Position numbers and translations under genes: made by a program. A stretch of DNA of 31,922 nt from a virus. The notes beneath the pieces were generated by a model, which was not told the DNA's origin, did not search any database, and saw nothing but the letters and a program-made list of their open reading frames with translations. The DNA lies in the IMG/VR virus record IMGVR_UViG_3300009551_000587, positions 1-31,922 of that record; one strand, given 5' to 3'. Positions 1,047-25,738 of the stretch are shown in pieces; the first letter of the stretch is position 1, and every line of letters begins with the position of its first letter.

Positions 1047-1122
<76 letters not shown>

Positions 1123-6188: not shown

Positions 6189-6201
6189 ATGGTCAAGGGT
6201 C
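6189..6201 (-). promoter_or_regulatory. Repeated element, copy a (before the fibre genes)
   Basis: The minus strand reads GACCCTTGACCAT, followed by exactly 26 nt and the ATG at 6162. It is one of four copies at unit boundaries (see 11973, 20014 and 25401). Here the base before GACCC makes CGA where copies b and d have a TGA stop. TTGACC resembles a -35 box, but no -10 is seen 17 nt downstream (CCAATT). Confidence 0.6.
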
Positions 6202-6224
6202 GAAAACCGGAGTATGATTTTCGA

Positions 6225-6581
6225 ATGCCGAAAGTCCCCAAATTTCGCACCTACGTCTGGAATGCGATCATGTATTGGGGCGTGCTCGTCGCTGGACGGG
6301 CTGCCGCAAATCACATGCAGATAACCTGGGAAAGTGTCGCGGTTATATCAGGGATTTTCGGTGGTATCGCCGCCTGCGTTTGGTGCGTTCTTTTCCTTCT
6401 CAGCCGTTATGGCGGCGAGTTGGGCCGCAAGCTGCTTACTCCGATTGGACCCGGAGCCGAGGGTCCGAAGTTGGAGCAAAATATTTCTTCCCTCGGGATC
6501 GACCATCGCAGCGGCAAGTTGCTTATTGGTCATGATTCCAGCCAATTTGCTGGCGCCAAGGGCGGCCAGTCCGGTCACTGA
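6225..6581 (+). CDS. Possible plus-strand membrane protein antisense to an ejection gene (doubtful)
   Basis: A 118-residue frame begins MPKVPKFRTYVWNAIMYWGV and has a second hydrophobic segment (VISGIFGGIAACVWCVLFLL) followed by SRYGGELGRK, a plausible two-pass topology. Its first 120 nt lie in a stretch with no minus-strand gene (6203-6347). The rest is antisense to the end of the 688-residue virion protein, whose codons there could create hydrophobic antisense residues by chance. No strong ribosome binding site is seen. It is kept only because the gap is otherwise unexplained. Confidence 0.25.
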   Translation: MPKVPKFRTYVWNAIMYWGVLVAGRAAANHMQITWESVAVISGIFGGIAACVWCVLFLLSRYGGELGRKLLTPIGPGAEGPKLEQNISSLGIDHRSGKLLIGHDSSQFAGAKGGQSGH

Positions 6582-8414
6582 ATGCGCGGCTGCGGCCGTC
6601 GCCGCCCGTCGCACATCTCCTTCCAAATTCGCACCCGTTCCGCTGAAATTGTAGCCCGTCTTATCCCCCAGTCTTAGGGCGGCATCGTAAGCATTCCGCA
6701 ATTGGGCAAGCTCGTTCGGCTCAAGCAAGGACTGCGCCCATGCCTGTCCCTTCGGCGTATTCCCCTGCAGCGCTCTGACGAACGTGGTCGGCTGCATTGC
6801 CAGGGTATTTGCCCCCTGAGACGGAGCGGCATTGCGCGATTGCTCTAGCGCATCTTCAATCACTCGACGCTTGACTGCCTGCCATGCTTCTGGAGACGCG
6901 TCCTGCATCATGGTTTTCGTTACCGACACTTCGCTTGGAGTCATGGCCTTCACGCGTGCAACGATCTTCTCCGGAGGGATCGTATTGAAGTCATCTCCCG
7001 TCATCGTGCCCGTCACATCCTCGCCGAGAAGCTTACCTAAAGGCGATTTCTTCAAATAATCGATCTGACCGCTGAAATTGCGGTAGTTTTGGTTTGCCGT
7101 GCGCAGCATGTCACCGACAGGGCCGCCCAGCTTCTCTGCATTTGCATCCAGATCGTTGTCAATCGCCCCAAGAAGGTCGCGCGCGACTTTGCGATCGACG
7201 CCTTCACCACTGATCTTTGCTTGTCCACCAGCTACCTTGGAAAGGTAGGAACGCAGGCTCATTAGGCTATTGACATCGCCCAGCCCAGAATCGGACGTCT
7301 TGTTCGCAAATCGTGTCAATGCTTCCGCGCCTGGCGTGGCGATGTTTCCATTTTCTGTGGCGATATCGGAGAGCGCTGCACGGAGATTATCCGGTTCAAT
7401 GAGTGGTCGACCGCCAATCTGTTGACGGATGGCTCCGTACTGCTGATCGGCTAGCGTCTTACGCTGCCCCTCGATATCGGCAATCTTGTTTTTGATCGCC
7501 GTACGGACAAGATCCCCCGTTTCCTCTGGACTACGAGCATTTTTGCTCGTGTTGTTGAGCATGCGGTTGATATAATCGTCGAGCGCTTGGGCAGCCTGAT
7601 CATCATGAGCGAAAACAGTGTCTGCCGTGTCCTTTGACTGACGCAGTTTCTGCTCCATGGTCGTCAGACCTTTACTTCCCGTGCTCTGTCCGGGCGTGAA
7701 TGGCACGCCAGTTTCTTGCGACAGCCGGTCGCTTTCCGTCATGAAGTCTTTTGCCGGTGAGGGCGCCGCGCCTTCCTGCGCCGCTTCGACCACCGGCTTC
7801 CCTGCGGCCATACGGAATGGAAGTTTTGCGGCATTGGCCAGAGCGCCAGTTATCTCCCCGGCTTGCTTTAGGCCACCTCCTACTACCGCGCCGAGAGCCG
7901 ACCCCTCGCCGATCTGCTTTAGCTTTTCGGTCCCGAAATCGTTCGCATTTTCGACTGGTGTCACCGCGCCAGCGCCGGCACCCCCGATTGCGCCAGCCTT
8001 GATGGCCTGGATAGCTCTTCCAAGCCAATTTGCACTCTGGGCACCCCCACCACCAATGCCCCCGATGGGCGCCGTAAGCGCAGCGCTTCCAGCCAAGCTG
8101 CCCCATTGGCCAGGACTCGTATTCAGCAGAGGACGATCCATTCGCGCACTATCTGCGACATCCGTGTCAATACGATCTTTCCAGCCTGGATCAAAAGCAG
8201 ATTGGACGACGGCCTCAGGCCCTACTAACCATGGATAATGCGCTACCAACTGCTCCGCACCCTGGGCTGTACTGTGCATGCCCTGCCCGATTGCGGCGAT
8301 GAATTTGTCAGCCGTGGACATTCCATCCAATGGGCCAGTAGTGCTTGGCTGCGGCGCGCTCTGGACATCAGAAAGCTTGAGCGGAGCGCTTTGAACTACC
8401 TCGGAAAGCTTCAT
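6348..8414 (-). CDS. Large internal virion / DNA ejection protein
   Basis: The 688-residue protein has no signal peptide. It shows Gly/Ala-rich segments (GSLAGSAALTAPIGGIGGGG, AIGGAGAGAV) that resemble membrane-active stretches of ejection proteins, followed by long helical, Gln/Lys/Ala-rich regions. Size, composition and place after the T7 gp14-like and second ejection genes fit the last and largest member of a podophage ejectosome, which leaves the capsid with the DNA and spans the cell envelope. Its start overlaps the stop of the 571-residue gene as ATGA. No enzymatic motif was recognised. The name is inferred from context and composition. Confidence 0.75.
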   Translation of the reverse strand: MKLSEVVQSAPLKLSDVQSAPQPSTTGPLDGMSTADKFIAAIGQGMHSTAQGAEQLVAHYPWLVGPEAVVQSAFDPGWKDRIDTDVADSARMDRPLLNTSPGQWGSLAGSAALTAPIGGIGGGGAQSANWLGRAIQAIKAGAIGGAGAGAVTPVENANDFGTEKLKQIGEGSALGAVVGGGLKQAGEITGALANAAKLPFRMAAGKPVVEAAQEGAAPSPAKDFMTESDRLSQETGVPFTPGQSTGSKGLTTMEQKLRQSKDTADTVFAHDDQAAQALDDYINRMLNNTSKNARSPEETGDLVRTAIKNKIADIEGQRKTLADQQYGAIRQQIGGRPLIEPDNLRAALSDIATENGNIATPGAEALTRFANKTSDSGLGDVNSLMSLRSYLSKVAGGQAKISGEGVDRKVARDLLGAIDNDLDANAEKLGGPVGDMLRTANQNYRNFSGQIDYLKKSPLGKLLGEDVTGTMTGDDFNTIPPEKIVARVKAMTPSEVSVTKTMMQDASPEAWQAVKRRVIEDALEQSRNAAPSQGANTLAMQPTTFVRALQGNTPKGQAWAQSLLEPNELAQLRNAYDAALRLGDKTGYNFSGTGANLEGDVRRAATAAAAHSVTGLAALGASKLAGIMTNKQLAAAMVDPEGRNILLQLRTLGSGSNRSKQLAAQLAAITAEKEKNAPNAGGDTTENP

Positions 8415-10126
8415 TGCACCAACTCCACATCGGGATCGCTGGGGTCACCACCCGTTACGCGATAGTGCTTTCCGCCGACAGAGATGATGTCTCCGACCTT
8501 ATGGCCGCTCTGCATTAAATCAGAGATTGAGGTATTTGGACTGATATCCGATGAGCCCACTTGGATGCCACTACGTTGAGCGATTTTGTCAAATGCGCTA
8601 TGTGCGTGTGGAGAAATAAAGTCCTTCTGCGCCGCAATCGTCCCCATGCCCTGCCGGTACTGATCTCCCAGTGCGTTGATCTTCGAATGTAGGAGTTCGT
8701 TGATCTGACCTGAAACCGCTTGCAACTGCTCAGGGGAGTTGGCGGCGTTGAGCGCAGAGCTCCACGTTTTAATATCCGATTCACTGCCACCGGTGCCGCG
8801 GTAGACGCGAGTCAATTCATCAACGAGCGCTTTTTTCGTCGCCTCGAACTGAGGAATGCGGGGATCGCCCATTGCGTTAGCGATCCAGTTCTTCGGTGCG
8901 TTCAGAGGCGTCAAAACACCACCGAAATTGTTCAGCTTTTGAGCGGAATCGCTCAAATCACCCAGATGGCCGCTAACCGTATTGAGCGCATTGATCGTTT
9001 GCGCCTCTTTACCCGAAGTAAACGCTTTGCGAGTTGCCGATCGCGCTTTGTAATTTGCCGCCTCGAAACTCGGATCGTAGCTGGCGACATTCGCCAGCAT
9101 CTCCTGCCAGTAGGGCGATTTCAGCGCGGACCCGCTAGGGAAATCCATGCGTCCTTCGGCAAGCGCTTTCACCTGAGCAGCATCTGCCGGAGCAAGAGTT
9201 TTTAGGAAGTCGTCACCGTGAATGGTCGATGCCATCGCCTCAGCGAGCGGATTGGCTGCGCCAGCAGTCGCTGTTGGGCTGATAGTAGCTGTCCATTGAC
9301 CCGGGCCGGCCGTCGGCTTGGCAGCTGCTTGGAAGTCAGCTCCGATACCAGCATCGTCCTTCCCGGCCTCAACCGCTTTGACGATCGCATCGCGCTGCTC
9401 GGGCGGAATATCGCCCGTTAGATCGAATTTGACGGGGCCACCAGGAGACTGCGAGGTGAAATGCGTTCCAGAATCCGGCGCAGCACCCATCATTGCTCCG
9501 CTGATCGTGGCCCCGTTTTTCGCAGCTTTCGCGAGATTGTCCACGCTCGCGGCATTTCTTTGTCCGATCAACGACTGGCCGATGGGAGTCGACGCGAATG
9601 ACTGCGCATCCGCGGACGCATACGGATTCACAACGGTGCCGTCTTCAACGCGCGTTACCGCAAGCGGCTTCAACGTGGCCGCCGAAACAATCCGTGAGGC
9701 ACCCAGGTCATTCCCAGACATTGCGGCCGTCAATGCGTTGTCTTGGGCGTCGTACTTTCTCTGCCCTTGAAGTGCCTCGTAGACCACGTTTGGATTGAAT
9801 CCAGCACGAAGCGTTCCGCTCAAAATAGCGGCTGTTCTCTGGTCTATTCCGTTATTCGACAAAGTCTGCTCGTAGGAGTTCTGCGCATTGTTCTCTGCTT
9901 CCGCTTTGACGGACTGAGCAACACGTAAGCGCTCCTGAGCAAGGGCGTCTCGCATCCTCGAGCCCTGATAGGCGCCCTGCATCACAGCTTGCTGCTGGCG
10001 CAAGCCATTCCCTAACAGCGCGCTCGCAAGAGAAGCTCCCGTATTGTCGAGCGGATTGCTGTATCTCGCCTGCATTGCCGCGCCCAAAGAAGGCGAAGAA
10101 TTCGGGAGATTTTCGTACAGAGCCAT
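8411..10126 (-). CDS. Internal virion / DNA ejection protein
   Basis: This 571-residue, mostly helical protein is rich in Ala, Gln, Asn and Ser. Its N-terminus (ENLPNSSPSLGAAMQARYSN) is followed by Gln-rich helices, and it has a long middle region. The C-terminus ends in a small beta motif (VGDIISVGGKHYRVTGGDP) common at the ends of phage structural proteins. It starts 11 nt after the previous gene with a purine-rich leader (GGGGACCGCGGA), and its stop overlaps the next start. It is probably the second large ejectosome protein, stored inside the capsid and ejected with the DNA. No catalytic motif was seen. Confidence 0.75.
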   Translation of the reverse strand: MALYENLPNSSPSLGAAMQARYSNPLDNTGASLASALLGNGLRQQQAVMQGAYQGSRMRDALAQERLRVAQSVKAEAENNAQNSYEQTLSNNGIDQRTAAILSGTLRAGFNPNVVYEALQGQRKYDAQDNALTAAMSGNDLGASRIVSAATLKPLAVTRVEDGTVVNPYASADAQSFASTPIGQSLIGQRNAASVDNLAKAAKNGATISGAMMGAAPDSGTHFTSQSPGGPVKFDLTGDIPPEQRDAIVKAVEAGKDDAGIGADFQAAAKPTAGPGQWTATISPTATAGAANPLAEAMASTIHGDDFLKTLAPADAAQVKALAEGRMDFPSGSALKSPYWQEMLANVASYDPSFEAANYKARSATRKAFTSGKEAQTINALNTVSGHLGDLSDSAQKLNNFGGVLTPLNAPKNWIANAMGDPRIPQFEATKKALVDELTRVYRGTGGSESDIKTWSSALNAANSPEQLQAVSGQINELLHSKINALGDQYRQGMGTIAAQKDFISPHAHSAFDKIAQRSGIQVGSSDISPNTSISDLMQSGHKVGDIISVGGKHYRVTGGDPSDPDVELVQ

Positions 10127-10137
10127 TCCGCGGTCCC

Positions 10138-10830
10138 CTAAATCAGTCCAGATGTGTCGGCGGACAAATCGGAATAATCCATCCCGCTATACGGGTACGA
10201 GCCGGATTTCGCCGCCTGTGCGGCCTTCAATGCCGCAAGAAAATTGGCGCTCCCAGATGAGCCGGAATAGACGCCCGCTCCAGCCTGCAACCCGCTACCC
10301 AGTAGGCCGATCCAGGGGTTTTGGCGAATCGATTGAAACTTAAGCGTATCCAGGTAATTCTGCCCCTGTAGCTTTCGGCCGAGCGCTCCCAAATCATTCG
10401 CGTAGTTGTCGATATTGACCGTGTTTGCCTGTCGCTCCAAGGTGGGCGCAGCCATTCCGGCCATGAGTCCAGCGGTCGTGTTGCCGTAGTTTGAGATGCC
10501 TTGCGCGGCATCCGCGCCGGCATTTTGATAAGCCTGCGATACGGCGCCAGCGGATTGCAACGGCTTCACTGATTGCGCCTGATTTGCCTTCAACTGCCCC
10601 GTAAGCGCCGCTGTCTGCTGCTGCAATTGAGGCTGATCTGTCAGCCTCGCTTGCTGCGAGATCATCTGGCCTGTACGCGCATCCGCCTGCCGTTGAATCG
10701 CAGACTGATCTCTAATCTGCTGCGCAAGTGTCTGATCCTGCTTTTTCGCGGTCTGCTGCTGATTATAATAATTCGCCCCGGCGCCAAGCGCCGACATCGC
10801 GAGAGGGATCCAGATTGCCTCAGTACCCAT
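10138..10830 (-). CDS. Internal virion protein with N-terminal hydrophobic segment
   Basis: The 230-residue protein starts MGTEAIWIPLAMSALGAGAN, a hydrophobic segment, and continues with Gln-rich helices (YYNQQQTAKKQDQTLAQQIR) and a Gly/Ser-rich end. The start at 10830 is fixed by GGAGG 8 nt upstream; the frame is open further upstream but with an Arg/Cys-rich, non-phage-like sequence. It overlaps the previous gene by 11 nt. Composition and position fit a podophage ejection protein, possibly lining the DNA channel through the inner membrane. Confidence 0.75.
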   Translation of the reverse strand: MGTEAIWIPLAMSALGAGANYYNQQQTAKKQDQTLAQQIRDQSAIQRQADARTGQMISQQARLTDQPQLQQQTAALTGQLKANQAQSVKPLQSAGAVSQAYQNAGADAAQGISNYGNTTAGLMAGMAAPTLERQANTVNIDNYANDLGALGRKLQGQNYLDTLKFQSIRQNPWIGLLGSGLQAGAGVYSGSSGSANFLAALKAAQAAKSGSYPYSGMDYSDLSADTSGLI

Positions 10831-11458
10831 AGCTATAACCTCCACCACCATTCGAGCCAGGTCCGAACATCGGCGAGAAAATGGAGCCGTACCCGTACAG
10901 CATGGCTTGCTGCTGCGCCTTTTGGTTCTGGCTATTTGAATAGATGTTCGCGAAGTTATCGAACAGACCACCTAACTGCTGCGCCTGAGCCGTTCCCTGG
11001 GCAGATTGCAAATTGCTTTGCAGGCCCTGGGTGGCCATCTGCGATGATGTCGACGTGTCCGCGCCAGTCTGCGCCATGCCAAGCAATTGCATTCGCGTGC
11101 TTTCATCTGAATTCATCAGATTTGCTTTTGCCTGCTGGCCGTACTGAGACGCTTGAAGCAAGCCTTTCTGATAAGCCTGTCCAAGCTGACCACCCTCGGC
11201 CGCCTGCTGGCTACCACCAGCAAGACCTTGTCGCGCGAGCGCGAACTTTAGATTGCGCTGCTGAATGGTATTCTGGCGATTGAGGTCGTTGGTGTAATAC
11301 TGCGTCGTATCGGATGCGAGTTTGTCGTACTGAGAGGTTCGCGATGGGTCGGAGAAAATCTTATTGATTGCCGAGGTCGACGCAGCGATCTGCGCCTGGC
11401 GCTCCTGCTCGGCTTGATTTGCTGCATTCTGTGCCGAATTGTCACTCGATCCGCCCAT
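10820..11458 (-). CDS. T7 gp14-like internal virion protein
   Basis: The 212-residue protein is rich in Gln, Ala and Ser, with repeated helical runs (NLKFALARQGLAGGSQQAAE, AQGTAQAQQLGG) and a Gly/Tyr tail (GSNGGGGYSYGY). The LKFALARQGLAGGS segment is typical of gp14-type ejection proteins of podophages that insert in the outer membrane. The start at 11458 overlaps the GNAT-like gene stop as TGATG; a longer frame reaches 11515 but lies within the upstream gene. It belongs to the ejection unit headed by repeated-element copy b. Confidence 0.75.
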   Translation of the reverse strand: MGGSSDNSAQNAANQAEQERQAQIAASTSAINKIFSDPSRTSQYDKLASDTTQYYTNDLNRQNTIQQRNLKFALARQGLAGGSQQAAEGGQLGQAYQKGLLQASQYGQQAKANLMNSDESTRMQLLGMAQTGADTSTSSQMATQGLQSNLQSAQGTAQAQQLGGLFDNFANIYSNSQNQKAQQQAMLYGYGSIFSPMFGPGSNGGGGYSYGY

Positions 11459-11946
11459 CAGGCTACCCTCGAAAAAAGCGCTACGTCTTGGCCTTGAAGG
11501 CCATAAGCGCGCCACGTCCCCTCACGCACTAGCTTCAATCCCCGCTCGTACCACTCGATTGCGCGCGCGCGCGAAGCAAGGCAGTTCGTTTGCAAGCGAC
11601 GAGCGCCCGCTTCGAACAAACCGTCCGCGACCCACCGGGATGCCTTTGTGATCGAGCGCCACCCATCTTTCCAGCCATCGCACGAACCAACCATCCATGA
11701 CTGCCAAACACCTGGCAGCACTTCATGGTAGCCACCCGCGCACGCTGGGAAGCCATCGGGCCCGAGCAGCGTGAATTTCAAGCCAGGCGTATTCATGAAA
11801 CCGACAGCCGCGGCTTCGTGATCGAACGTCTGCGCAGGCACGAATGCAAGGTATTGCTCGATCTCATCCGGACGCATGCGCTCACAGAGATAGAGCAAGT
11901 GCGCTGGACGGCAAGCAATTAGATTTGACGGCGGATCGGCTCGCAT
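11458..11946 (-). CDS. GNAT-fold protein, gp13/DUF2833-like
   Basis: The 162-residue protein resembles the acetyltransferase-fold proteins found just before ejection genes in T7-like and related podophages. Supporting patterns are CAGGYHEVLPGVWQSWMVGS (core strands), then AGARRLQTNCLASRARAIEW and YERGLKLVREG, the typical GNAT helix and last strands. The usual R/Q-x-x-G-x-G/A acetyl-CoA loop is not evident, so it may be structural or non-catalytic. The ATG at 11946 has no Shine-Dalgarno (GCGCGT precedes it), but the repeated element ends exactly 26 nt upstream. It is the first gene of the ejection unit. Confidence 0.7.
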   Translation of the reverse strand: MRADPPSNLIACRPAHLLYLCERMRPDEIEQYLAFVPAQTFDHEAAAVGFMNTPGLKFTLLGPDGFPACAGGYHEVLPGVWQSWMVGSCDGWKDGWRSITKASRWVADGLFEAGARRLQTNCLASRARAIEWYERGLKLVREGTWRAYGLQGQDVALFSRVA

Positions 11947-11972
11947 ACGCGCAGCGTTCCATAGTTATATCA

Positions 11973-11985
11973 ATGGTCAAGGGTC
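11973..11985 (-). promoter_or_regulatory. Repeated element, copy b (before the ejection genes)
   Basis: The minus strand reads GACCCTTGACCAT, preceded by T so that TGA is the stop codon of the hub C-terminal gene. A 26-nt spacer leads to the ATG at 11946. Bases 6-10 of the spacer (TAACT) match copy d, and bases 20-26 (TGCGCGT) match copy c at the same offset. Confidence 0.65.
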
Positions 11986-12490
11986 ATGCGGTCGGGCGCG
12001 AATCCCTCAGATACATCGTCACGGCGTACAACGCCCATTTACTCGCACTTGAAAACGTTACCTTGAACGAGAACGAAGGCACGAATAAGGTCAATGGGAT
12101 AAATACCCCTGGGACCGTATCTGGAATTGTCGAATACACCGCCGTGAATGCCGATGTGTTCGACTCGTCGTAGCCGATCGACACGTCCGCGAGAAGTTGC
12201 GAGGAAGCCGTCATATCGAAGCCGACCATCAGCTTCGAAAGTCCAGGTTGCCCCATATCAAGCCAAGGCCATTGGATCGTTGAGGTGAACTCGGAAAATT
12301 TCGGCGAATTACCAACGTAGTCGCCTAGCGCACTCTGATCGACGGCGAGCACATCATCGCCAGAGCGGATGTACAGCGTACCGGCGTCTTGGGCAAACGC
12401 ATCGATTTGGAATGGAAACGTATACCTGCTCCACGCCCCAACTTCGCCGGTTCGGCTCAATGTGTAAACAAATACCGTAGTGTCAGTCAT
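11984..12490 (-). CDS. C-terminal part of a P22 gp10-like tail hub
   Basis: The 168-residue protein starts MTDTTVFVYTLSRTGEVGAW and contains SRYTFPFQIDAFA, LYIRSGDDVLAVD and QWPWLDMGQPGLSK. I recall these motifs from the C-terminal part of the podophage tail hub/stabilisation protein (P22 gp10-like; T7 gp12 role). In that family this region normally follows a strand like the one that ends the 14003-15352 protein. Here it is a separate gene after two others. The start at 12490 overlaps the previous stop as ATGA. Its stop lies in repeated-element copy b. Confidence 0.7.
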   Translation of the reverse strand: MTDTTVFVYTLSRTGEVGAWSRYTFPFQIDAFAQDAGTLYIRSGDDVLAVDQSALGDYVGNSPKFSEFTSTIQWPWLDMGQPGLSKLMVGFDMTASSQLLADVSIGYDESNTSAFTAVYSTIPDTVPGVFIPLTLFVPSFSFKVTFSSASKWALYAVTMYLRDSRPTA

Positions 12491-13080
12491 GACGGAGTGA
12501 ACTCGAATTGCAAGCGATTGCCTCGGTTCATGCCAAGCTTGGAAAAATTCAGTCCCGTGGGGATTGTGGCTTGCACGTACTCCATACCCCACCGATCACG
12601 CTGCATACGCGTGCACAACGTCTGACCATTCATGTAAGCAAGAATCATGTCATTCGAGCCCACCAGCGTCTCCAGCGCGCGCTTGTCGTCCATCGCCACA
12701 TGAGGGTGTGAATAGGAACCCGGGAATGACCTGAAAACCTGCGCATGCGCAATCGGGTCATACCACCATAAGTTCATCACGCCAGCTTGCATGAACGCCA
12801 CACAAGGGTTCATGTTCTGATCGAACGTACCGGATATTTCCGTTGTTCCGGCCTGAGTGAATAGTACGATCGGGCCGCCAGTCGATGGCGCAGAAACGCT
12901 GACCGTTCCGGTTGACGTATCCAAAGTAAACGTCCACACCTGAACTTGCAGCCCCTGCGACGAATCCTGTAGCGCAACTCCACCTAGCTCGTAGTCGAGC
13001 GTCGCACTTATGGCCAGATCGTCTGGTGGCAGAAGTAAGGCGTACTGCGGACTCGTCGATAGAATGTTCTGCGGCATCAT
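12487..13080 (-). CDS. Tail/neck protein of unknown role
   Basis: The 197-residue protein starts MMPQNILSTSPQYALLLPPD; the ATG at 13080 overlaps the previous stop as ATGA. It is beta-rich, with VQVWTFTLDTSTGTVSVSAP, FDQNMNPCVAFMQAGVMNLW and WGMEYVQATIPTG, resembling beta-propeller strands in phage tail hubs. It lies between the middle and C-terminal parts of the split hub and may belong to the same assembly. No signal peptide or membrane segment. The exact family was not recognised. Confidence 0.68.
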   Translation of the reverse strand: MMPQNILSTSPQYALLLPPDDLAISATLDYELGGVALQDSSQGLQVQVWTFTLDTSTGTVSVSAPSTGGPIVLFTQAGTTEISGTFDQNMNPCVAFMQAGVMNLWWYDPIAHAQVFRSFPGSYSHPHVAMDDKRALETLVGSNDMILAYMNGQTLCTRMQRDRWGMEYVQATIPTGLNFSKLGMNRGNRLQFEFTPS

Positions 13081-13991
13081 AGCGGGTGATTCGCCCATGA
13101 CACGCGGGTAACAAACGTCAATTGCTGTGTGTTTGTCTTGTCGATCGGAGGCGAAATTCCCATTTGGACGGAACCTAAGGTAGTTCCAACAACGTAAGAC
13201 TGAATACCAGTGATCGCCGTGTTGATGACGGACGATGCCGTTAAATCGACGTAGTAATTTCCATTTGTATATGACGACAAAGTCGATGATAAAGCGCCAA
13301 TGCTTGTCCCAGACGGAATTGAGGTGATGGGCTGTATTACTGACTGAAACCAGGATGGATTTCCTCCGGAAGAATAGAATCCGGCTTTTGCACCGATGTT
13401 CACGGTGCCGGAATTGGTAACCATCGCAGCACGGATCGTGATGGTGTATGACGTACTGTTGATAGTCACCGTTGCTGTGGCATCGCTCGCGGGAGGGTAA
13501 TAGCGAAGTTCATAGGTGACGTTTAGGTATTCGTCGCCCAAAACCGTAATAGTCGTTGGACTTCCCAAACCGTCGAGAATCAGCTGACGAGAAAAAAGTT
13601 TCCCATCATTCGCAGTACTTGCTCCCACGCCAACTTCTGAAAAGTTGTGCGCAACATTACCAAGCGCGGCAGGCGTGAACTGCCATGTTTTTATGTTTGA
13701 AATGTAGTACGGAGGACTTGATTGTGCGGTGATTGTGTTGCTAATCACGTTCGTAGTTCCAGCAACGTACGAATCGAGTCCGGTTTGGGTCGCTACTGGC
13801 GTCGAACTCCCTAGACCAACTTGGCAGGCACCATTGATTGAGCCTAGCGAACCAAGAAGATCAAGCCCATTGGTGAGGACGAGGTTGTTGAACCATCCTG
13901 TGCTGCAGCGTAATTCGCCATCCTGCCCTAAGACATCAAGCTTATATCGGCCGCCAATGCCAAATTTGAGATGGATATTCGGTTCCGTCAT
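13077..13991 (-). CDS. Tail/appendage structural protein
   Basis: The 304-residue protein has an N-terminal module LKFGIGGRYKLDVLGQDGEL, then TGWFNNLVLTNGLDLLG. I recognise this as a recurrent pattern at the N-termini of phage minor tail proteins. The rest is Ser/Thr/Gly-rich beta structure. The start at 13991 has GAGGG upstream and lies 11 nt after the hub middle gene. Its stop overlaps the next start as ATGA. It is an insertion between two hub segments and could form an appendage attached at the hub. Confidence 0.7.
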   Translation of the reverse strand: MTEPNIHLKFGIGGRYKLDVLGQDGELRCSTGWFNNLVLTNGLDLLGSLGSINGACQVGLGSSTPVATQTGLDSYVAGTTNVISNTITAQSSPPYYISNIKTWQFTPAALGNVAHNFSEVGVGASTANDGKLFSRQLILDGLGSPTTITVLGDEYLNVTYELRYYPPASDATATVTINSTSYTITIRAAMVTNSGTVNIGAKAGFYSSGGNPSWFQSVIQPITSIPSGTSIGALSSTLSSYTNGNYYVDLTASSVINTAITGIQSYVVGTTLGSVQMGISPPIDKTNTQQLTFVTRVSWANHPL

Positions 13992-14002
13992 GATCTTGAC
14001 CC

Positions 14003-18169: not shown

Positions 18170-18182
18170 ACATACCCCGATG

Positions 18183-18208
18183 AAAAAAGGGCCGGGCGAA
18201 CCCGGCCC
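18183..18208 (-). terminator. Rho-independent terminator after the capsid unit
   Basis: On the minus strand GGGCCGGG-TTCG-CCCGGCCC is a perfect 8-bp stem with a UUCG tetraloop, followed by TTTTTT. It lies between the last head gene (stop 18215) and the next gene (start 18169). It separates abundant capsid mRNA from tail mRNA, probably as a partial terminator, since no clear promoter follows. Confidence 0.9.
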
Positions 18209-18214
18209 ATATGG

Positions 18215-18514
18215 CTACGCTGCGACTTTCTGAGGCGTGATGTACCGCGACAAGGCGCCATAATCGCGAAACGTTTCTCGCACCGGATTGACCAGGGCAT
18301 TTCGGCCTTCGTCGAAGTAGTCGGGATAGGTGCGCATGAGACGGTCGTACTCTTCCTCGACGTTGACGTCCTTGGCAGAGGCGTTTTTCGTGCCGAGCAC
18401 ATGCACGTTCGCATCGCCGTGAATCTGGCGAAGGACATGCGCCTCGTATTCCGGCACTTCTTTGACGATCTTGAGCGCCGCGCCGCGTTCGATCTGGACG
18501 GTTTGAATTTCCAT
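18215..18514 (-). CDS. Small head protein, function unknown
   Basis: The 99-residue acidic, soluble protein begins MEIQTVQIERGAALKIVKEV and is predicted mixed alpha/beta (EEEYDRLMRTYPDYFDEGRN helix). The start at 18514 has AAAGGAA upstream. It is the last gene before the terminator and shares the unit with the capsid gene and the 85-residue gene, so it is likely made in amounts close to the capsid protein. Possible roles are capsid decoration or head completion. No family recognised. Confidence 0.72.
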   Translation of the reverse strand: MEIQTVQIERGAALKIVKEVPEYEAHVLRQIHGDANVHVLGTKNASAKDVNVEEEYDRLMRTYPDYFDEGRNALVNPVRETFRDYGALSRYITPQKVAA

Positions 18515-18523
18515 GAAATTCCT

Positions 18524-18781
18524 TTAGTCGATGAGAAGAATGCCTGCCGTCGCTGTCTTGATGTAGTTCGGCAGAGTGACCTCGACGAACGAGTTCGCCG
18601 GAACAGTAGCCAGCGCCGTGTAAGACACCACGTTGTCTGGCGACTGCGTCAGCGCGATTGGCGAGGCGGTCGGGTTGAACGCCAGGACATTGCGGCCAGA
18701 AACGAACGGTGTTGCACCACCGCCGACGCCAGGGCCGAGATTGATGGCAGTGGTGACACCAAGAGTGAAAAGCTTTGCCAT
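18524..18781 (-). CDS. Small head decoration-like protein
   Basis: The 85-residue protein starts MAKLFTLGVTTAINLGPGVG. It is beta-rich, with few charges, and has an FVEVTLPNYIKTATAGILLI end. It directly follows the capsid gene, with GAGGAC upstream of the ATG. Composition and place fit a capsid-surface decoration or cement protein. The sequence alone does not prove this. Confidence 0.72.
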   Translation of the reverse strand: MAKLFTLGVTTAINLGPGVGGGATPFVSGRNVLAFNPTASPIALTQSPDNVVSYTALATVPANSFVEVTLPNYIKTATAGILLID

Positions 18782-18791
18782 GGTCGTGTCC

Positions 18792-19853
18792 TCAGGCGAT
18801 GGAAAGAACAGCCATCGAATTGCGCTTTTTGACCGTCAGCCCATAGTCGGCGGTGAGGCCAAAATAATGGGTATAGCGGTCATAGACGCGATCGGGCTTG
18901 CGGTTGATGAGCCAGCGGCCCTTATTCGGGCGCAGGACCATGTGCTTGGACTGCAGGAAATAGCAGCGCTTGGCCCAGCCCGGCGTCGTCGAGTCGAGCA
19001 CATCGAACGTCGGATCCCACATGAGCTCGACGCCCTTAAAGTACAGGCCGCTCGTGCCACCACTGGTGTCGGTCGAGGCATCGATGTTCGTGTTCTTGCC
19101 GCTGCCGAGGATGATTTGACGGTTCACCGTCGAGAGCGCATCTTTGCGGTAGGCATCAAGGAACGCCGAGCCGACAAAGATCGCATCCGGCGACATACCG
19201 CCGTAGGTCATGCATTTGCGCCACTGAACTTCCATGGCCTGCACCAACGTGCCGGCCGTGCCAGTGTTGATGCCGATGGAGGCGTTGTTCTGCCAGTAGG
19301 CATTGATCGACTGATCGATGCCGCCGACGACCGTTGCCGACGTCGGCGTGGTCGAAACCAGTAGATCGAGGCCCGGGCACGACTTCGTCGACGCCGTACC
19401 GTCCTTGTGGATTTCGAGATCCCAGTTCTGCTGGAAACCGTCCTTCAAGGTTGCGTAGTTTTCCTTGAGGCGGTTGACGATCTGGATTTGCTCGGCCTCG
19501 GTGAGGACGGCATTCTTATCGTCGGTCAGCACGATGCCGTTGTCGGCCATGTCGGTTTCGTTGACCGCAAAGCCGTCATGGGCTTCGTAGTGCTGGAATG
19601 GCGCAAGACGAACGGTGTCCTTGGTGTTGTAGGTCACCTGGTCGTCGCGCGTGTAGTTCTGATAGTTCGAGTTGTTCGAAATGCGCACCTTCTCGTTGAA
19701 GATGCCATTACCGAACACGGATTCCTGCTTGTTCTTGATGAGCCACTGCGCGAACGGGCGCGCGGTCGTGAACTGATCGACCGGATCGTTTTTCGCATAG
19801 CTGTTGAGCTGATAGTTGGCGCCTGCGGCCAACTGGGCGGAAGTGATGGGCAC
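18792..19853 (-). CDS. Major capsid protein
   Basis: The 353-residue protein follows the scaffold gene in the order expected for the coat protein. It has an extended N-terminal arm (PITSAQLAAGANYQLNSYAK), a charged region DDQVTYNTKDTVRLAPFQHY, and a C-terminal part with VELMWDPTFDV and GWAKRCYFLQSKHMVLRPNK, which resembles the end of HK97-fold coats binding ordered strands. Start choice: GTG at 19853 has GAGG 10 nt upstream. An upstream GTG at 19919 would add 22 residues and fits less well. The upstream leader of about 170 nt holds a hairpin (19962-19995) and repeated-element copy c. No exact family was recognised. Confidence 0.85.
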   Translation of the reverse strand: MPITSAQLAAGANYQLNSYAKNDPVDQFTTARPFAQWLIKNKQESVFGNGIFNEKVRISNNSNYQNYTRDDQVTYNTKDTVRLAPFQHYEAHDGFAVNETDMADNGIVLTDDKNAVLTEAEQIQIVNRLKENYATLKDGFQQNWDLEIHKDGTASTKSCPGLDLLVSTTPTSATVVGGIDQSINAYWQNNASIGINTGTAGTLVQAMEVQWRKCMTYGGMSPDAIFVGSAFLDAYRKDALSTVNRQIILGSGKNTNIDASTDTSGGTSGLYFKGVELMWDPTFDVLDSTTPGWAKRCYFLQSKHMVLRPNKGRWLINRKPDRVYDRYTHYFGLTADYGLTVKKRNSMAVLSIA

Positions 19854-19961
19854 TGTTATGTCCTCGAAGTAGGAAAGGTCACAGCCGATTGGCTGATTTC
19901 TTCCCGCGTTCGTGGACACGACCCCACTTACGATGCTACGGAGCGCGACTTCCGCTTACGC

Positions 19962-19995
19962 TTGCGCGGTGCGGATTGTCAGTCCGCACGCGCAA
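19962..19995 (-). promoter_or_regulatory. Strong hairpin in the capsid gene leader
   Basis: TTGCGC-GTGCGGA pairs with TCCGCAC-GCGCAA (minus strand), 13 bp with one bulged C and loop CTGACAA. No U run follows, so it is not a simple terminator. It may stabilise or process capsid mRNA. It lies just after repeated-element copy c. Confidence 0.6.
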
Positions 19996-20013
19996 GATGC
20001 ACGATCTCGAAAG

Positions 20014-20027
20014 ATGGTCAAGGGTTC
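20014..20027 (-). promoter_or_regulatory. Repeated element, copy c (before the capsid gene)
   Basis: The minus strand reads GAACCCTTGACCAT. The scaffold stop TGA (20028-20026) overlaps it, with one extra A compared with the other copies. Spacer bases 11-16 (CGTGCA) match copy d and bases 20-26 (TGCGCGT) match copy b at equal offsets. No ATG sits at 26 nt here. Confidence 0.6.
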
Positions 20028-21078
20028 AACGAATTGAAGCGACGCCCATGGAAAAGGCTTCCATGTCGTCCTTCGGCTGACGTATTTGGGCGTTCGTTGC
20101 TCCGGTGGGGCGCAGCGGCACGGCTTCAACAGTGGGCTTTTGACCAGCGGCCGGCGCCGGCGCAGAAGCAATCGATGGAAGTGCCAAATACGCACGCTGA
20201 GCAGCAGCCGCCCATTCGCTCGGATGCATCGTTTGCTGGATAACCTGCAAAGTTGGCTGCAAGTAGGCCATTTTCTGGGAGAACGCCGGGTCAGAAGCCT
20301 GGAATCGCGCACCAACAGCTCGCAAGTCGCCCATGGCCTGCTCGTTAGCCTGCTGAAACTGCTGCTGACGCTGAAATTCGGCCTGTTGGCGCTGTGTAAG
20401 CTCACTGCTTCGCGCCGCATGTTCACGCTGCTGCACGATTTCTAGCGCGCGCTGACGCGTCAGCTCACCTTTGCCGACTTCCTCGGCCAAATCGCGGTGC
20501 TTGTCGAGCGGATCGAAGACGCCAGGGACTTCTTTGCCTATCCTCTGACCGAGCCATTTCATTTCAGCCAGCATGGCGTCGTAGACGAGTACCATTTTCT
20601 GCGGATCGCCGCTGTTGATCGCAGACAAGTAGTTCATCACGCGCCCGAATTGATCCGGCGTGGCACCTGTCGAAGCAATCGCGGTCTGCCATTCATCTGC
20701 TTTCGCAGCTTTTGCAGAAATCTCGTCGAAAGCCTGCTGTGTCGGTCGAGCCGACAATTCACGAAAGCGCGCCGCGGATTTTTCTTTCAACCCGAGGGCG
20801 TTTACTTCGGCTTCGATTTCAGCCTTCTGCCGATCCTCGTCCGAAAGGTCTTCATCTTCCTGCGCAGGAACGACTGGCACCGCAGGCGAAGCTGCTTGCG
20901 TAGCGTCCGTTTTGGCTTCTCCTGCGGGCGCCGGAGCGTCCGCGCCGCTCGCCTCTGCGACTCCGCGCGCAAATGCATCAACATCGCTTTCGGGAGCCGG
21001 CGCAGGAGCAGGCGCATCGACGGCAGGAGCGGCAGCAGATTGGGTGGTGTTGGTAGTATCAGCTTGGACGGTGTCCAT
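20026..21078 (-). CDS. Scaffold protein
   Basis: The 350-residue protein begins with a long low-complexity Ala/Pro/Asp region (PAVDAPAPAPAPESDVDAFA). Charged helices follow (SDEDRQKAEIEAEVNALGLK) and a Gln-rich coiled-coil segment (RQQAEFQRQQQFQQANEQAM). This profile and the place between portal and capsid genes are typical of podophage scaffold proteins, which guide capsid assembly and then leave. A small basic C-terminus (MEAFSMGVASIR) could bind the coat. The ATG at 21078 has AAAGGA upstream. No protease is seen in the window. Confidence 0.85.
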   Translation of the reverse strand: MDTVQADTTNTTQSAAAPAVDAPAPAPAPESDVDAFARGVAEASGADAPAPAGEAKTDATQAASPAVPVVPAQEDEDLSDEDRQKAEIEAEVNALGLKEKSAARFRELSARPTQQAFDEISAKAAKADEWQTAIASTGATPDQFGRVMNYLSAINSGDPQKMVLVYDAMLAEMKWLGQRIGKEVPGVFDPLDKHRDLAEEVGKGELTRQRALEIVQQREHAARSSELTQRQQAEFQRQQQFQQANEQAMGDLRAVGARFQASDPAFSQKMAYLQPTLQVIQQTMHPSEWAAAAQRAYLALPSIASAPAPAAGQKPTVEAVPLRPTGATNAQIRQPKDDMEAFSMGVASIR

Positions 21079-21244
21079 TGGAAATCCTTTGCGTGAAAAA
21101 TTGTGGCCCGACGCCTACAGATCGCGGGTCGCGATAGGCTTCATTGATTCCGCATTTCGAGCAGTGCAAATGACGAACAGCACCCCATTCAGACGAGTGC
21201 GTTGTCTGCCAGCGGTGCTCGCATTCAATTTGGGCGATGTCCAT
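21059..21244 (-). CDS. Small zinc-ribbon-like protein between portal and scaffold
   Basis: The 61-residue protein has CEHRW near the N-terminus, then HLHCSKCGINEAYRDP, a possible Cys/His zinc site (C-x-H with C-x-x-C). It overlaps the portal gene end by 20 nt and the scaffold start by 20 nt, and fills the gap between them exactly. GGGA lies upstream of the ATG. The snug fit and Cys pattern favour a real gene. Function unknown; small zinc proteins here may regulate or assist assembly. Confidence 0.6.
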   Translation of the reverse strand: MDIAQIECEHRWQTTHSSEWGAVRHLHCSKCGINEAYRDPRSVGVGPQFFTQRISNGHRPS

Positions 21245-23558
21245 CGATCATCCCATTGTGTGGAACTGGTAAGAGGTTTGCGCCGCCTTGTGATGGCGGA
21301 ATTGGAATGGCTGCGCCAGATGGTTCGGGCATTAGCTGCGCCGGCATCTGAGGCATCGGGCCTGGTTGTTCGGCCGGCACCGGTGGCAGGAAACGTGACG
21401 GATCAAGACGATCGCCGGTACGGTTGAGCGTCTCGGCGACCAGCTCCTGAATACCATCCGCGATATCGCTCGGGGCCGACTGACGTAGCTGACCGACCTG
21501 CATGATAGCGTTCTGCAGAACTGGCATAGTCGCTGCCCACGACTGCTGCTGCGCCGTGGTATCAGGCTTGCCTGACGAGCCGCCCTTCACTGAAACGGTG
21601 AGCAGGACAGATAGACCATCAATCGTGATTCCTTCCGGCCAAAATGCCCATGGTCCGGCGATTTCCTCGACGTCTTTGCGGTCCATCTTCTGTAACGAGA
21701 CTTCGGCCGTGTATTGCGCCAGATCGTCCATCAAAGAATCGATGCAGTCGCGCATGTAGCTCGTGCGCGCGTTGGTACCGGTTTGCTGAATCTCGGCTTC
21801 GGTGGCCGTCTTGGCGGTGCGCACGGAGGCGGCCAAAGCTTCTTGAATGCCCCACGACATTTCCAACATCGCCCGCGTTGGCCGATCGTCGTAGAGATTG
21901 ATGTCGATCGGTGGATAGGCAATCGCGGCGATAGCGTTCGCTATGGGTTCGCCTTGACGGGAAGGATGCAGGCCAACCATCTCACCAATCGCGCCCATCT
22001 CGAGTTTTTTAGCCTGACTGGCATCGAGCAGCGTGGCATCAAATCCCGTCTTCGGAATCGCTCGACGACGGTGCTCGGCGCGATTCGAATAGATGCGGTT
22101 CATGTCATCTAGCAGATGACGAGTGCGCGAGATCATGGACTGCGGATGCCGCTCACCATCGACACGAAGCATCGATAGTGCAAAGAACGGATAGAACCGA
22201 GTCGTTCCCGGATCCGGCGCATAGGTTGGCTTGGCGTACTTCTCCAGACCCTCCACCAGTGTCAGGACGGAATTCGCATCCTTGTTCCAAACCTCCCATA
22301 CGCAAACCGAACCATCGCCCGTTTGATTGCTGCTCGTAAGCGACGATCCCGCAGCACCGCTGCGATACGAATCGGCGTCGACATCAGAGACATTCGCCAG
22401 AGGGCCAATGTCCTTTCGATCGGTATTGTCAGATGGTTTCTGCTGAAAATAGATGTTCGCCTTGCTTAGGTCTTCCTCAACGGTAGGAAACGCCGCACGG
22501 GCATCATTCAATGTCATGAACGTGCGATGCGCGATCCACGGCGCATCGCGATAGCCTTCGAGCGTTCCAACCTGCGGCGCAACCTGGATGTCTTCGGCAT
22601 TGATGAAATCGATCGCCATACCGCGGGCGACAATCACCTCAACCCTGGCCTGCAGCCCTTCCATTTGCTGCTGCAGGCTGGCGCGCAGTTCGTCGGTGTT
22701 GTTTCCGCCATCCTCGATTTCCTCTTGGGTCGCTGCGATGCGCTCCAAGTTGTCCTGCATGTCGCTCAGCTGAGACTGGATGATCGGGTCTTTGCCCATC
22801 CGCTGCTGCCAACTGGCCTTGAGCCAGCCGATGCCAACCGAAAGGCATGAGCCGACCAACGGTTGCCCCTGAGCCTTAAGCCTTCCCTGCTTCCACAAAC
22901 GCTCAATGACGATCTCTAGCGTCTGCCCAAGTTGCTTGGCGTCGTCTTGCCGCTGACGGTAAGGCGCAAGAATCTTCTTGGCCGCCTGTCGAACTGCCTG
23001 ATCGATCCAGCCTTGTATCGCGGCTTGAGCCGCCTGCTCCGGAGGGACTGTCGGCTGCGGCGGGCTTGTCTTTGGAACGCCGTGTGTCAGCGCCTGACCC
23101 ACACCAACGAGCGTGGCTTGGGCATTCGCGGTGGCGGCAGACGCTGCCGCTTGTTGCCCTACCTGCTGCATCATCGCCTGGGCTTGCGGATCGGACATGA
23201 CCTGAGCCCGCGCCATCTCCATGATCTCGGCCATCGGCGGCGGATTGGTCGCGTCCGCCGGCATGATGTCCAAATCAGGGTCGCGCGCGTACAGAAACGA
23301 CTTAAGGATATCGATGTACGTGCCAGCAATGGGAATACTGACCTCGAACTGGCCAGCGTCGCCTCGCGCATAGCGCCGGTCCAGCGCATACTGCTTACGT
23401 GCAGCCTTATCGAACTCACGAGCCTCGTTGATGCGCTTTAGCCATGCTTTGACGTCCGCACATTCCTGCGCGTTGTAGTCCGGCTTGTCCTCCATTGCCG
23501 CCTGCATGAACTGGTCAGCGTCGGTAGGCTGCGCGAGGTATTCTTCTGGGGTACTCAC
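21225..23558 (-). CDS. Portal protein
   Basis: The 777-residue protein follows terminase and precedes scaffold and coat, as podophage portals do. It is in the size range of P22-like portals and has the helix/stem pattern of the family. Regions that fit are PIAGTYIDILKSFLYARDPD (N-terminal wing), a Gln/Ala-rich coiled segment at about 110-190, RTRHLLDDMNRIYSNRAEHR (stem-like helix), TATEAEIQQTGTNARTSYMR, a typical portal crown/wing motif, and a Pro-rich C-terminal tail. Portals form dodecameric rings through which DNA is packaged and ejected. The start overlaps the TerL stop as ATGA. Confidence 0.9.
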   Translation of the reverse strand: MSTPEEYLAQPTDADQFMQAAMEDKPDYNAQECADVKAWLKRINEAREFDKAARKQYALDRRYARGDAGQFEVSIPIAGTYIDILKSFLYARDPDLDIMPADATNPPPMAEIMEMARAQVMSDPQAQAMMQQVGQQAAASAATANAQATLVGVGQALTHGVPKTSPPQPTVPPEQAAQAAIQGWIDQAVRQAAKKILAPYRQRQDDAKQLGQTLEIVIERLWKQGRLKAQGQPLVGSCLSVGIGWLKASWQQRMGKDPIIQSQLSDMQDNLERIAATQEEIEDGGNNTDELRASLQQQMEGLQARVEVIVARGMAIDFINAEDIQVAPQVGTLEGYRDAPWIAHRTFMTLNDARAAFPTVEEDLSKANIYFQQKPSDNTDRKDIGPLANVSDVDADSYRSGAAGSSLTSSNQTGDGSVCVWEVWNKDANSVLTLVEGLEKYAKPTYAPDPGTTRFYPFFALSMLRVDGERHPQSMISRTRHLLDDMNRIYSNRAEHRRRAIPKTGFDATLLDASQAKKLEMGAIGEMVGLHPSRQGEPIANAIAAIAYPPIDINLYDDRPTRAMLEMSWGIQEALAASVRTAKTATEAEIQQTGTNARTSYMRDCIDSLMDDLAQYTAEVSLQKMDRKDVEEIAGPWAFWPEGITIDGLSVLLTVSVKGGSSGKPDTTAQQQSWAATMPVLQNAIMQVGQLRQSAPSDIADGIQELVAETLNRTGDRLDPSRFLPPVPAEQPGPMPQMPAQLMPEPSGAAIPIPPSQGGANLLPVPHNGMIDGHRPN

Positions 23559-24883
23559 CGGTAGAACCTCCGACGCTCGTCTTCTTCCTGCGATTCGCTA
23601 TAGCGAATCGACTCGATATGCCTGCGCGTGAACGGAACAATGGGCGCATCGTCCTTTTTCTCGGGCTTACGAGCGTTCGCCATCATGTCTAGGCCGCGGG
23701 CAAGCAGACTGCACACGTCCACCATGTCGTCGGTTCGGCCATCCTCACCAGTGAAGCTGCAAAGCTGGTTCACCAGACGTGTCGCCCATTCAGTCTTCGG
23801 CAACAAAACGGCGCCAGCGGATGCACGTGCAGCGAAGCCAAGCGCTCGCTCTGCCTTGTTGCCGGCGGATGCCAGTGGTTCGCGCAAGATGAAAGTGTCA
23901 CGCTCGCGCAAACGCTTAGAGATCGCGCCATCGACAGCGCGCAGGATCACGCCTTTTTCCTCGAACCACAGTTGCGGCTTGTTACGGCGAATCAGGCCAA
24001 CCGCTGCCTCGATCCATGTCTCCGGCGCCGTCTGTCCGCTCCACCAGTCGACGAAGTACAGGTCGCCCTGATCGTCTAAGGCGGCAATGCCGTGCTCCGT
24101 CCAATCGCCGCCATCCTCACTGACGGCGTAGTCGCTTGCCATGTAAACGGACAGGCGCTCAGGAAGCGTGTCGTAGAACTTGAACCAGTGGCGTTTGAAC
24201 AACAGGCCAGCAAGCGATCGGCACTTACCCTCCCAAACGTGCCGGTAGAGGTCGTCGTTCAGCGCTTTGAGCGCAAGACGCTCGGCCTCTAGCTCTGGCG
24301 GGAACCAGGGGTTATCTGCATAGCTCACGTCGATCACGAGCGCATCAGCGCGCTTCGCGATATCGGCGTGAACGTAATCCTCTTCGAGCCTCGGGTTGTA
24401 ACTCCACCAAATCTCTGATTGTTCTCCACGAGAGCGCGCGGCATCACTACCGCGAATCGTGGGGATCAAAATATTTGCGGAATGCTGGCTAACGGTCTGC
24501 GCTTCCTCCACCCAGCAGATATCCACACCCTCATACGATTTGATGGAATCCGACGTGTGATCTTGCAGGCCGGTGAATAGGAATTCCGTCCCATTCGCTC
24601 CCTTGATCGTGGTCGCCTGAATATCGTAGAAGGCAGACAGGCCCATCGCCTCGATCTGGTCGGATAACAGTTTGTGAACGGAGTCCTTGATCGACTTCTG
24701 CACTTCGCGAGCGCATAAGATGCGCAACTTCGTTTCAGCGCCCCTAAGAAGCAGTAGGCGCGCTATGCACCAGGACTTGCCACCCCCACGGCCACCACGG
24801 GCAACCTTGTGCCGTCTACGTTCCGCGTGGAACGGACGCATGACCGGCAGCAGACGAATCGGCTCGTTCGCGCCGTCTGCCAT
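23555..24883 (-). CDS. terL: Terminase large subunit
   Basis: The 442-residue packaging motor has a Walker A in GGRGGGKS (residues 30-37, Lys36) and a Walker B with catalytic acids in DICWVEEA (about 121-128). A nuclease domain has acidic residues in ASDYAVSED (Asp251), WFEEKG (308-309) and DDMVDV (385-390), the usual RNase-H-like set. The domain order and length fit phage TerL, which binds portal and TerS and cuts and pumps DNA. The start overlaps the small-subunit stop as TAATG, and its stop overlaps portal. Confidence 0.95.
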   Translation of the reverse strand: MADGANEPIRLLPVMRPFHAERRRHKVARGGRGGGKSWCIARLLLLRGAETKLRILCAREVQKSIKDSVHKLLSDQIEAMGLSAFYDIQATTIKGANGTEFLFTGLQDHTSDSIKSYEGVDICWVEEAQTVSQHSANILIPTIRGSDAARSRGEQSEIWWSYNPRLEEDYVHADIAKRADALVIDVSYADNPWFPPELEAERLALKALNDDLYRHVWEGKCRSLAGLLFKRHWFKFYDTLPERLSVYMASDYAVSEDGGDWTEHGIAALDDQGDLYFVDWWSGQTAPETWIEAAVGLIRRNKPQLWFEEKGVILRAVDGAISKRLRERDTFILREPLASAGNKAERALGFAARASAGAVLLPKTEWATRLVNQLCSFTGEDGRTDDMVDVCSLLARGLDMMANARKPEKKDDAPIVPFTRRHIESIRYSESQEEDERRRFYR

Positions 24884-25128
24884 TACGGCCCCCAGTTGAC
24901 TTTCAGGGCATGCTGAATCGGACCGCCGTCACCACCCGTCAGAACGCGAGGCACAACTTTGCCGATCAGGGTAAGGAATGCCGTTGGGTTCTCTCTTGCC
25001 TGCTTTGCCAAGTATTGGCGGCCGCCAACATCAGACAGCGCGCCCTCGATCATGTCTTTGATCGCCGCGTTATCCTTGTTTGGCTTGCCCTTACGCGAGC
25101 CACCCCCGGTTTTAATCCCTTTCGCCAT
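24883..25128 (-). CDS. terS: Small terminase subunit-like protein
   Basis: The 81-residue protein begins MAKGIKTGGGSRKGKPNKDN, a basic, flexible DNA-binding-like start. A helical part follows (AAIKDMIEGALSDVGGRQYL, then NPTAFLTLIGKVVPRVLTG). The pattern YL-x-x-QA-x-x-NP-x-AF-x-x-LIGKV-x-P is familiar from small terminase-type genes upstream of TerL. It is shorter than most TerS proteins, so it may be a minimal one. Its stop overlaps the TerL start. Confidence 0.78.
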   Translation of the reverse strand: MAKGIKTGGGSRKGKPNKDNAAIKDMIEGALSDVGGRQYLAKQARENPTAFLTLIGKVVPRVLTGGDGGPIQHALKVNWGP

Positions 25129-25149
25129 GGCAGTTATGACACTCTGCGA

Positions 25150-25374
25150 TTAGGAACCGTCATCGCCACCGGTCGTCTGACCGAGCACGACATTGGCTTT
25201 GCGATCGATGGTGGCTTTCTGGCCCGGAGTGATGGACTTGCCGACCTGCTGCGATGCGCGTGCCTTCGCGTTTGCCGCGTGAGCTTTGTCTGGCATCGGG
25301 TATTTGCGCTTATCGGCCAATCCAAACATGGCGTCCGAGAGCGCGTTGCGGCCTTTCGATGTGAGCGTACTCAT
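25150..25374 (-). CDS. Small basic protein, DUF6582-like
   Basis: The 74-residue protein contains LTSKGRNALSDAMFGLADKR, KYPMPDKAHAANAKARASQQ and ITPGQKATIDRKAN. It resembles small phage-associated proteins with a KYP-x-x-D-x-xHA-x-NA motif (DUF6582-like, by recall). The ATG at 25374 has no Shine-Dalgarno (TGTCTGCGC precedes it) but lies exactly 26 nt after repeated-element copy d. It heads the packaging unit. Function unknown. Confidence 0.72.
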   Translation of the reverse strand: MSTLTSKGRNALSDAMFGLADKRKYPMPDKAHAANAKARASQQVGKSITPGQKATIDRKANVVLGQTTGGDDGS

Positions 25375-25400
25375 GCGCAGACAGTGCACGAGTTACGCGA

Positions 25401-25413
25401 ATGGTCAAGGGTC
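25401..25413 (-). promoter_or_regulatory. Repeated element, copy d (before the terminase unit)
   Basis: The minus strand reads GACCCTTGACCAT within TTGACCCTTGACC, a near-tandem repeat. The TGA stop of the 108-residue gene overlaps it. A 26-nt spacer leads to the ATG at 25374. Spacer similarities to copies b and c are at the same offsets. Confidence 0.65.
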
Positions 25414-25738
25414 AAGCGGCGGTTAGGAACTCTTCCAGGAACGCGCAGATGTCGGCTTGTATTTGCTCTGTGGTGGGGAATACCGGCGATCCGCTCGCGT
25501 ACAGTCCGATGACCATTTTAGGACAGCGCCGGATCCACAATTGCGTTGTTGCGGCTTCCTCGGAAAGAAGATAGATGAACCGATCCGAGTCTGCCAACAC
25601 GTAGGCTCCACATTGCGTGCGATCACGTATCCCACGGATCCGGCGTACAAGGTCAGCCGCAAATTGCCCAGCAGACTCATCGCTGAATTGCCCGATAGAC
25701 TTGAGGCGCTTATCCGACCAGCGATTGGGCGCCTTCAT
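25412..25738 (-). CDS. Hypothetical protein, 108 aa
   Basis: The protein begins MKAPNRWSDKRLKSIGQFSD and ends with a helical DICAFLEEFLTAA. The middle shows VRRIRGIRDRTQCGAYVLAD and FIYLLSEEAA, mixed alpha/beta with no membrane segment. The start at 25738 overlaps the stop of the nuclease gene as ATGA, and the stop lies in repeated-element copy d, so it is the last gene of the early/replication operon. I recognise no family. Confidence 0.72.
   Translation of the reverse strand: MKAPNRWSDKRLKSIGQFSDESAGQFAADLVRRIRGIRDRTQCGAYVLADSDRFIYLLSEEAATTQLWIRRCPKMVIGLYASGSPVFPTTEQIQADICAFLEEFLTAA

Follow-up and report, generated by a model that had tools for sequence, protein, structure and literature searches.

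We propose that the late genes of this prophage are turned on together from four promoters that share a phage-private box at the −35 region. The window, i.e. the whole stretch of 31,922 nucleotides analysed here, is an IMG/VR virus record that represents a prophage, and it contains exactly four exact copies of the 12-mer ACCCTTGACCAT, all on the minus strand and each at the start of a late unit. It is likely that these copies mark late promoters that would be served by the host σ70 polymerase together with a phage factor that reads the box. In each promoter, the −35 element would lie inside the box (about −38 to −26); after a spacer of 16 bp would come a weak −10, and transcription would begin seven bases beyond it. 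Messages from sites d, b and a would be leaderless, their start coinciding with the A of the ATG, and that from site c would begin at the first base of a hairpin and carry a structured capsid-gene leader of 134 nt, which this hairpin opens. Transcription is probably carried out by host σ70 RNA polymerase, and a poor −10 combined with a private box implies that a phage-encoded factor turns the units on. A change of this factor in a sister lineage would have carried all four boxes along. The likeliest factor is the 108-residue product of ORF 25412-25738, whose gene immediately precedes the first late promoter.

The late region of the window runs leftward and encodes lysis, fibre, capsid, portal and terminase functions; the early region is lambda-like, with a P-like loader, an HNH protein and NinB (Table 1). 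The host gene rlmJ and the tRNA gene that follows it occupy positions 1-1119, a likely attachment site. At the other end, tandem 15-bp repeats of a pentapeptide-repeat-like type (31747-31922) continue past the right end. A megablast search of isolated phages with the window returned no match, and tblastn with the capsid protein found remote phages only. In the phage collection covered by these searches, the group to which the prophage belongs has no close relative among isolates.

Table 1. Coordinates of the genes, promoter sites and RNA elements discussed in the text. Positions are those of the window unless a relative is named; start points (+1) are predicted.
Feature	Position	Strand	Description
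rlmJ	left edge		host gene
tRNA gene	1047-1119		next after rlmJ
Gene a	5644-6162	−	172 aa, fibre-like; predicted leaderless
Site a	6189-6201	−	GACCCTTGACCAT; −35 TTGACC 6196-6191; weak −10 TCCAAT 6174-6169; +1 at A of ATG 6162
Gene b	11458-11946	−	162 aa, PHROG 4177; predicted leaderless
Site b	11973-11985	−	GACCCTTGACCAT; −35 TTGACC 11980-11975; −10 AACGCT 11958-11953; +1 at A of ATG 11946
Terminator-like hairpin	18189-18208	−	strong, intrinsic type; downstream of capsid gene
Major capsid gene	18792-19853	−	likely true start GTG 19853; ribosome-binding site GAGGA
Structured capsid leader	19902-19987	−	5′ hairpin GCGGACTGACAATCCGC; closing stem CCGCG/CGCGG; inner stem
Site c	20014-20026	−	AACCCTTGACCAT; −35 TTGACC 20021-20016; −10 CATCTT 19999-19994; +1 at 19987, first base of leader hairpin
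Portal	21225-23558	−	
Terminase	23555-24883	−	
PHROG 11043 gene	24883-25128	−	after first late gene
First late gene	25150-25374	−	74 aa; predicted leaderless
Site d	25401-25413	−	GACCCTTGACCAT; −35 TTGACC 25408-25403; −10 CACTGT 25386-25381; +1 at A of ATG 25374
ORF 25412-25738	25412-25738	−	108 aa, lambda-Q position; stop codon overlaps site d
Leader equivalent, L202	8957-9043		
Leader equivalent, L244	10807-10894	−	

The first-pass annotation of this DNA had reported three exact copies of a 13-bp element and a one-base variant on the minus strand. All three exact copies were found where it placed them, and the variant is genuine but ends at 20026 rather than 20027. The distance of 26 nt between the three exact copies and the ATG of the following gene was correct, and so were the bases shared at equal offsets in the spacers (TAACT in b and d, CGTGCA in c and d, TGCGCGT in b and c). 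Three copies had been said to include the TGA stop of the preceding gene; those at sites d and b contain only its last two bases (at 25413 and 11985) and that at site c only the last base (at 20026). Any 11-mer present in four copies occurred in 1 of 300 dinucleotide-preserving shuffles, and no further 11-mer reached four copies on the minus strand once the tandem repeats of pentapeptide-repeat type near the right end were set aside. The absence of a normal −10 had been overstated. At every site TTGACC is followed, at a distance of 16 bp, by a degenerate −10, which has the form nAnnnT at three of the four, the exception being site a, which lacks the A at −11; moreover, the key −10 bases are conserved in relatives.

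This conservation was examined in an alignment, anchored at TTGA, of 53 distinct sites that come from about 30 related phages. They share an architecture that consists of CC(G/C)TTGA, a −10 located 16 bp past the −35 hexamer, six bases, and then either the start codon ATG or the hairpin with which the capsid leader opens. The −35 in the window is TTGACC, and TTGA is present at 53 of 53 sites, though it also served, with position, as the anchor by which the sites of the relatives were chosen. The −10 was not used in choosing them. Upstream of the anchor, C is found at −37 in 84% of the sites and at −36 in 96%, with G or C at −35 in 92%. In the −10 region, G-13 (90%), C-12 (75%), A-11 (84%) and T-7 (96%) stand out, although many of the 53 sites are orthologous and so do not represent independent events; the spacers have diverged, whereas the conserved columns have not. 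The A-11 and T-7 expected of a σ70 −10 thus occur at a 16-bp spacing across the collection. Heat-shock σ32 was considered for the CCCTTGA part of the motif; its −10, CCCCATNT, is missing from these sites, and it was rejected on the G at −13 (90%) and the T at −7 (96%).

The register between the −10 and the gene start is equally regular. T-7 is followed by six bases and then the ATG at sites d, b and a of the window and at most b and d sites of the relatives, and by seven bases at L202 b, L205 b, L244 d and L262 d. The standard σ70 register places +1 seven bases past the end of the −10, so that the predicted start falls on the ATG or one base before it at sites a, b and d, and the messages from these three sites of the window would be leaderless. 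At L202 b, where the ATG is one base later, the predicted message would gain one extra base. At the portal site of the relatives, the −10 and the ATG have shifted downstream together relative to TTGA, which indicates that the position of the ATG follows that of the −10. The b site was not seen in L258-L260 or L244. In the L204 group, the match at site b lies inside the coding sequence of the preceding gene (NALNVTV) and has no −10; it may not be a promoter and was set aside. From these alignments, the four sites are most likely σ70-type late promoters, three of them leaderless and that of the capsid gene with a 134-nt structured leader. The earlier proposal of a phage-specific promoter or activator site making almost leaderless late messages stands in that motif and spacing are both conserved in related phages, with the motif private to each phage, but it does not extend to the capsid copy.

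The predicted capsid message is the exception. The longest open reading frame begins at GTG 19919, which falls within the structured leader. The start is most likely GTG 19853 instead, where the proteins and ribosome-binding sites of the relatives align, and the predicted message therefore carries the 134-nt leader. At site c, the hairpin GCGGACTGACAATCCGC begins exactly at the predicted +1; in the relatives compared, the predicted +1 is mostly within about three bases of a hairpin whose sequence differs while its pairing is kept. In an alignment of the leaders, 93.6% of the cells are paired and 8 of 15 pairs have changed on both sides. None of 500 shuffles was as high in compensatory changes, and sliding the pairing partners destroyed the signal. 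Judged by this covariation, 19902-19987 is a conserved structured RNA. It matched no Rfam family at the gathering threshold. A covariance model of the leader built with L244 left out matched L244 with an E value of 1e-10, and matches were present in 11 of 91 Stenotrophomonas genomes. The inner hairpins have similar loops of the TCGCG type. Possible roles of the leader are control of capsid translation or protection of the message at its 5′ end.

An argument for a dedicated reader of the box comes from the closest relative of the window, L202 (IMGVR_UViG_3300026078_000069, a record of 32,518 bases). Its capsid protein is 94% identical to that of the window and its first late protein 93%; the DNA is about 69-82% identical in aligned stretches, and the product of gene a shows 77% identity to its orthologue across the first 91 residues. 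The box of the window is absent from L202. The L202 record instead contains exactly four copies of AGCCTTGATTGTTG, on one strand and at all four orthologous sites. The places orthologous to d, c and b read GAAGCCTTGATTGTTG, the equivalent of site d reads AAGCCTTGATTGTTG, and the fourth AGCCTTGATTGTTG precedes the gene a orthologue. The window and L202 therefore differ by the same four substitutions (at −37, −30, −29 and −28) at each of four well-separated sites, and both keep A-38, C-36, C-35, TTGA and T-27. The more distant L244 (43% identity in the capsid protein) has a 16-bp version of its own, TGCCGTTGACGCCTTG, at sites d and c. It is very unlikely that independent drift would give identical changes at four sites, while a shared trans-acting reader could do so. 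The concerted change thus implies a phage-encoded reader of the −35 region.

We considered the possibility that these are plain host σ70 promoters that work without a phage factor, the shared letters reflecting a conserved −35 alone. A-11 and T-7 are conserved as this would predict, and relatives at site c read CCGTTGACA-N16-CATAGT/CATATT, near to the consensus (TTGACA-N16-CATAGT/CATATT); many Stenotrophomonas phages have a capsid promoter that approaches the σ70 consensus and might work without a factor. However, the identity of 12-16 bp within a phage extends well outside the hexamer, the boxes change in concert between phages, and the −10 elements of the window are poor. The host genomes also argue against it. 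Of 299 genomes of the family, 14 contained a match to CCGTTGA, spacer, nAnnnT, 5-7 bases and ATG with a GC further downstream, and a reversed control gave a similar number, i.e. chance level. A stricter pattern had a single match in each of three lysogenic Stenotrophomonas genomes, always at site b of the prophage. The pattern is not a general host promoter, and the absence of a phage factor appears unlikely. Two wider searches were also conducted: an exact scan of viral contigs for CCCTTGACCAT-N26-ATG returned at least 117 stretches with one match each, which is uninformative for a pattern of this size, and a profile search with the divergent alignment A1 gave matches in 4 of 399 genomes of the order.

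The best candidate for a phage-encoded late activator is the product of ORF 25412-25738, on account of its position, its near-universality and its fast divergence. Its family is the one early gene found in 21 of the 22 early regions compared. A profile search recovered it from almost all loci extending to the Q position but not from L216 and L260; the capsid site of L216 is also without the usual CC(G/C)TTGA in register. In the seven loci examined (the window, L202, L206, L211, L227, L244 and L262), the candidate gene ends within site d or immediately before it. The product is only 48% identical between the window and L202, compared with 93-94% for NinB, the first late protein and the capsid protein. 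Such divergence would be expected of a factor with changed specificity, although the neighbouring VRR-NUC protein is as divergent. The protein has no Pfam or PHROG family. Its confidently predicted fold, E-H-E-E-H-E-H (pLDDT 87.5), had no Foldseek match in PDB or BFVD and contains no helix-turn-helix, which makes direct DNA binding uncertain; as modelled, the product may act on sigma or together with another protein. We suggest tentatively, as a possibility about which we remain somewhat doubtful, that it is the first member of a new family of late activators with a fold of their own. Such proteins would recognise the −35 region and co-evolve with a scattered set of leaderless late promoters, the promoter specificity being rewritten in step at all sites between sister phages. 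In the early regions of L209, L210, L242 and L205, the homologue is itself closely preceded by a promoter of the kind described here, whose −10 is better (TATAC-like). This arrangement would fit self-activation.

The location of the candidate gene raises the question of whether the box could instead bind a Q-like antitermination factor that loads onto polymerase at each promoter. As with Q and pR′ of lambda, a small gene with a putative regulatory role lies directly before the first late promoter and an element is embedded in the promoter. However, the QBE is located between −35 and −10 (PMC6606751), whereas the element here overlies the −35 (about −38 to −26), and the candidate lacks a helix-turn-helix. 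Within the first 15 predicted transcribed bases, a pause-like −10 (nAnnnT) is present at sites c and d and missing at sites a and b. Furthermore, four promoters, as opposed to the one of lambda, would be odd for a read-through strategy, and we regard antitermination as improbable. A prophage repressor that occupies the −35 of each late promoter in the lysogenic state would likewise account for a box that overlaps the −35 and for its concerted change. This reading is very improbable: the box lacks dyad symmetry, lysogens normally keep their late genes silent without a repressor acting on them directly, and no copy of the box is found near the immunity region.

The proposed activation through a private box at −35 has a counterpart in the middle promoters of T4, a case of sigma appropriation with AsiA in which a phage factor reads the MotA box, this box replaces or overlaps the −35, and the σ70 −10 is kept (PMC7403470). 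The window resembles this system in having a private box at −35, a retained σ70 −10 and a proposed phage reader; it differs in that TTGA is retained and that late units of a temperate phage are involved. No relative of MotA or AsiA was detected by PHROG or Pfam among the window ORFs scanned. Several phage-private promoter copies along the late genome are also typical of T7-like phages with single-subunit polymerases, but the sites in the window keep the −35/−10 logic of σ70. No match to a phage single-subunit RNA polymerase was found in the window, in which two large unassigned ORFs have no Pfam match. Middle and late transcripts without leaders are found in the Thermus phage phiYS40 (PMC3594737). 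The window is predicted to share this feature for the late messages from sites a, b and d, although phage and host are unrelated and the window has, in addition, a conserved −35-type box, a fixed spacing and a structured capsid leader. The predicted leaderless late programme would thus extend beyond the Thermus phage case and include a conserved structured capsid leader. Because box and presumed reader changed together at four sites, the sister phages form a natural series, and the specificity code of a late activator, here a candidate with no recognised fold in its predicted model, could be worked out by simple swaps.

The terminase module of the window (23555-25128) differs from that of L202 (3152-5183), although the flanks on both sides are closely related, which suggests that a module was exchanged between promoter sites d and c. 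That the boxes are merely recombination linkers at module boundaries, with no role in transcription, would agree with this difference and with their location at unit boundaries but is hardly credible, given the fixed distance to the ATG, the conserved register of −10 and hairpin, the single orientation, and the concerted divergence rather than conservation between related phages.
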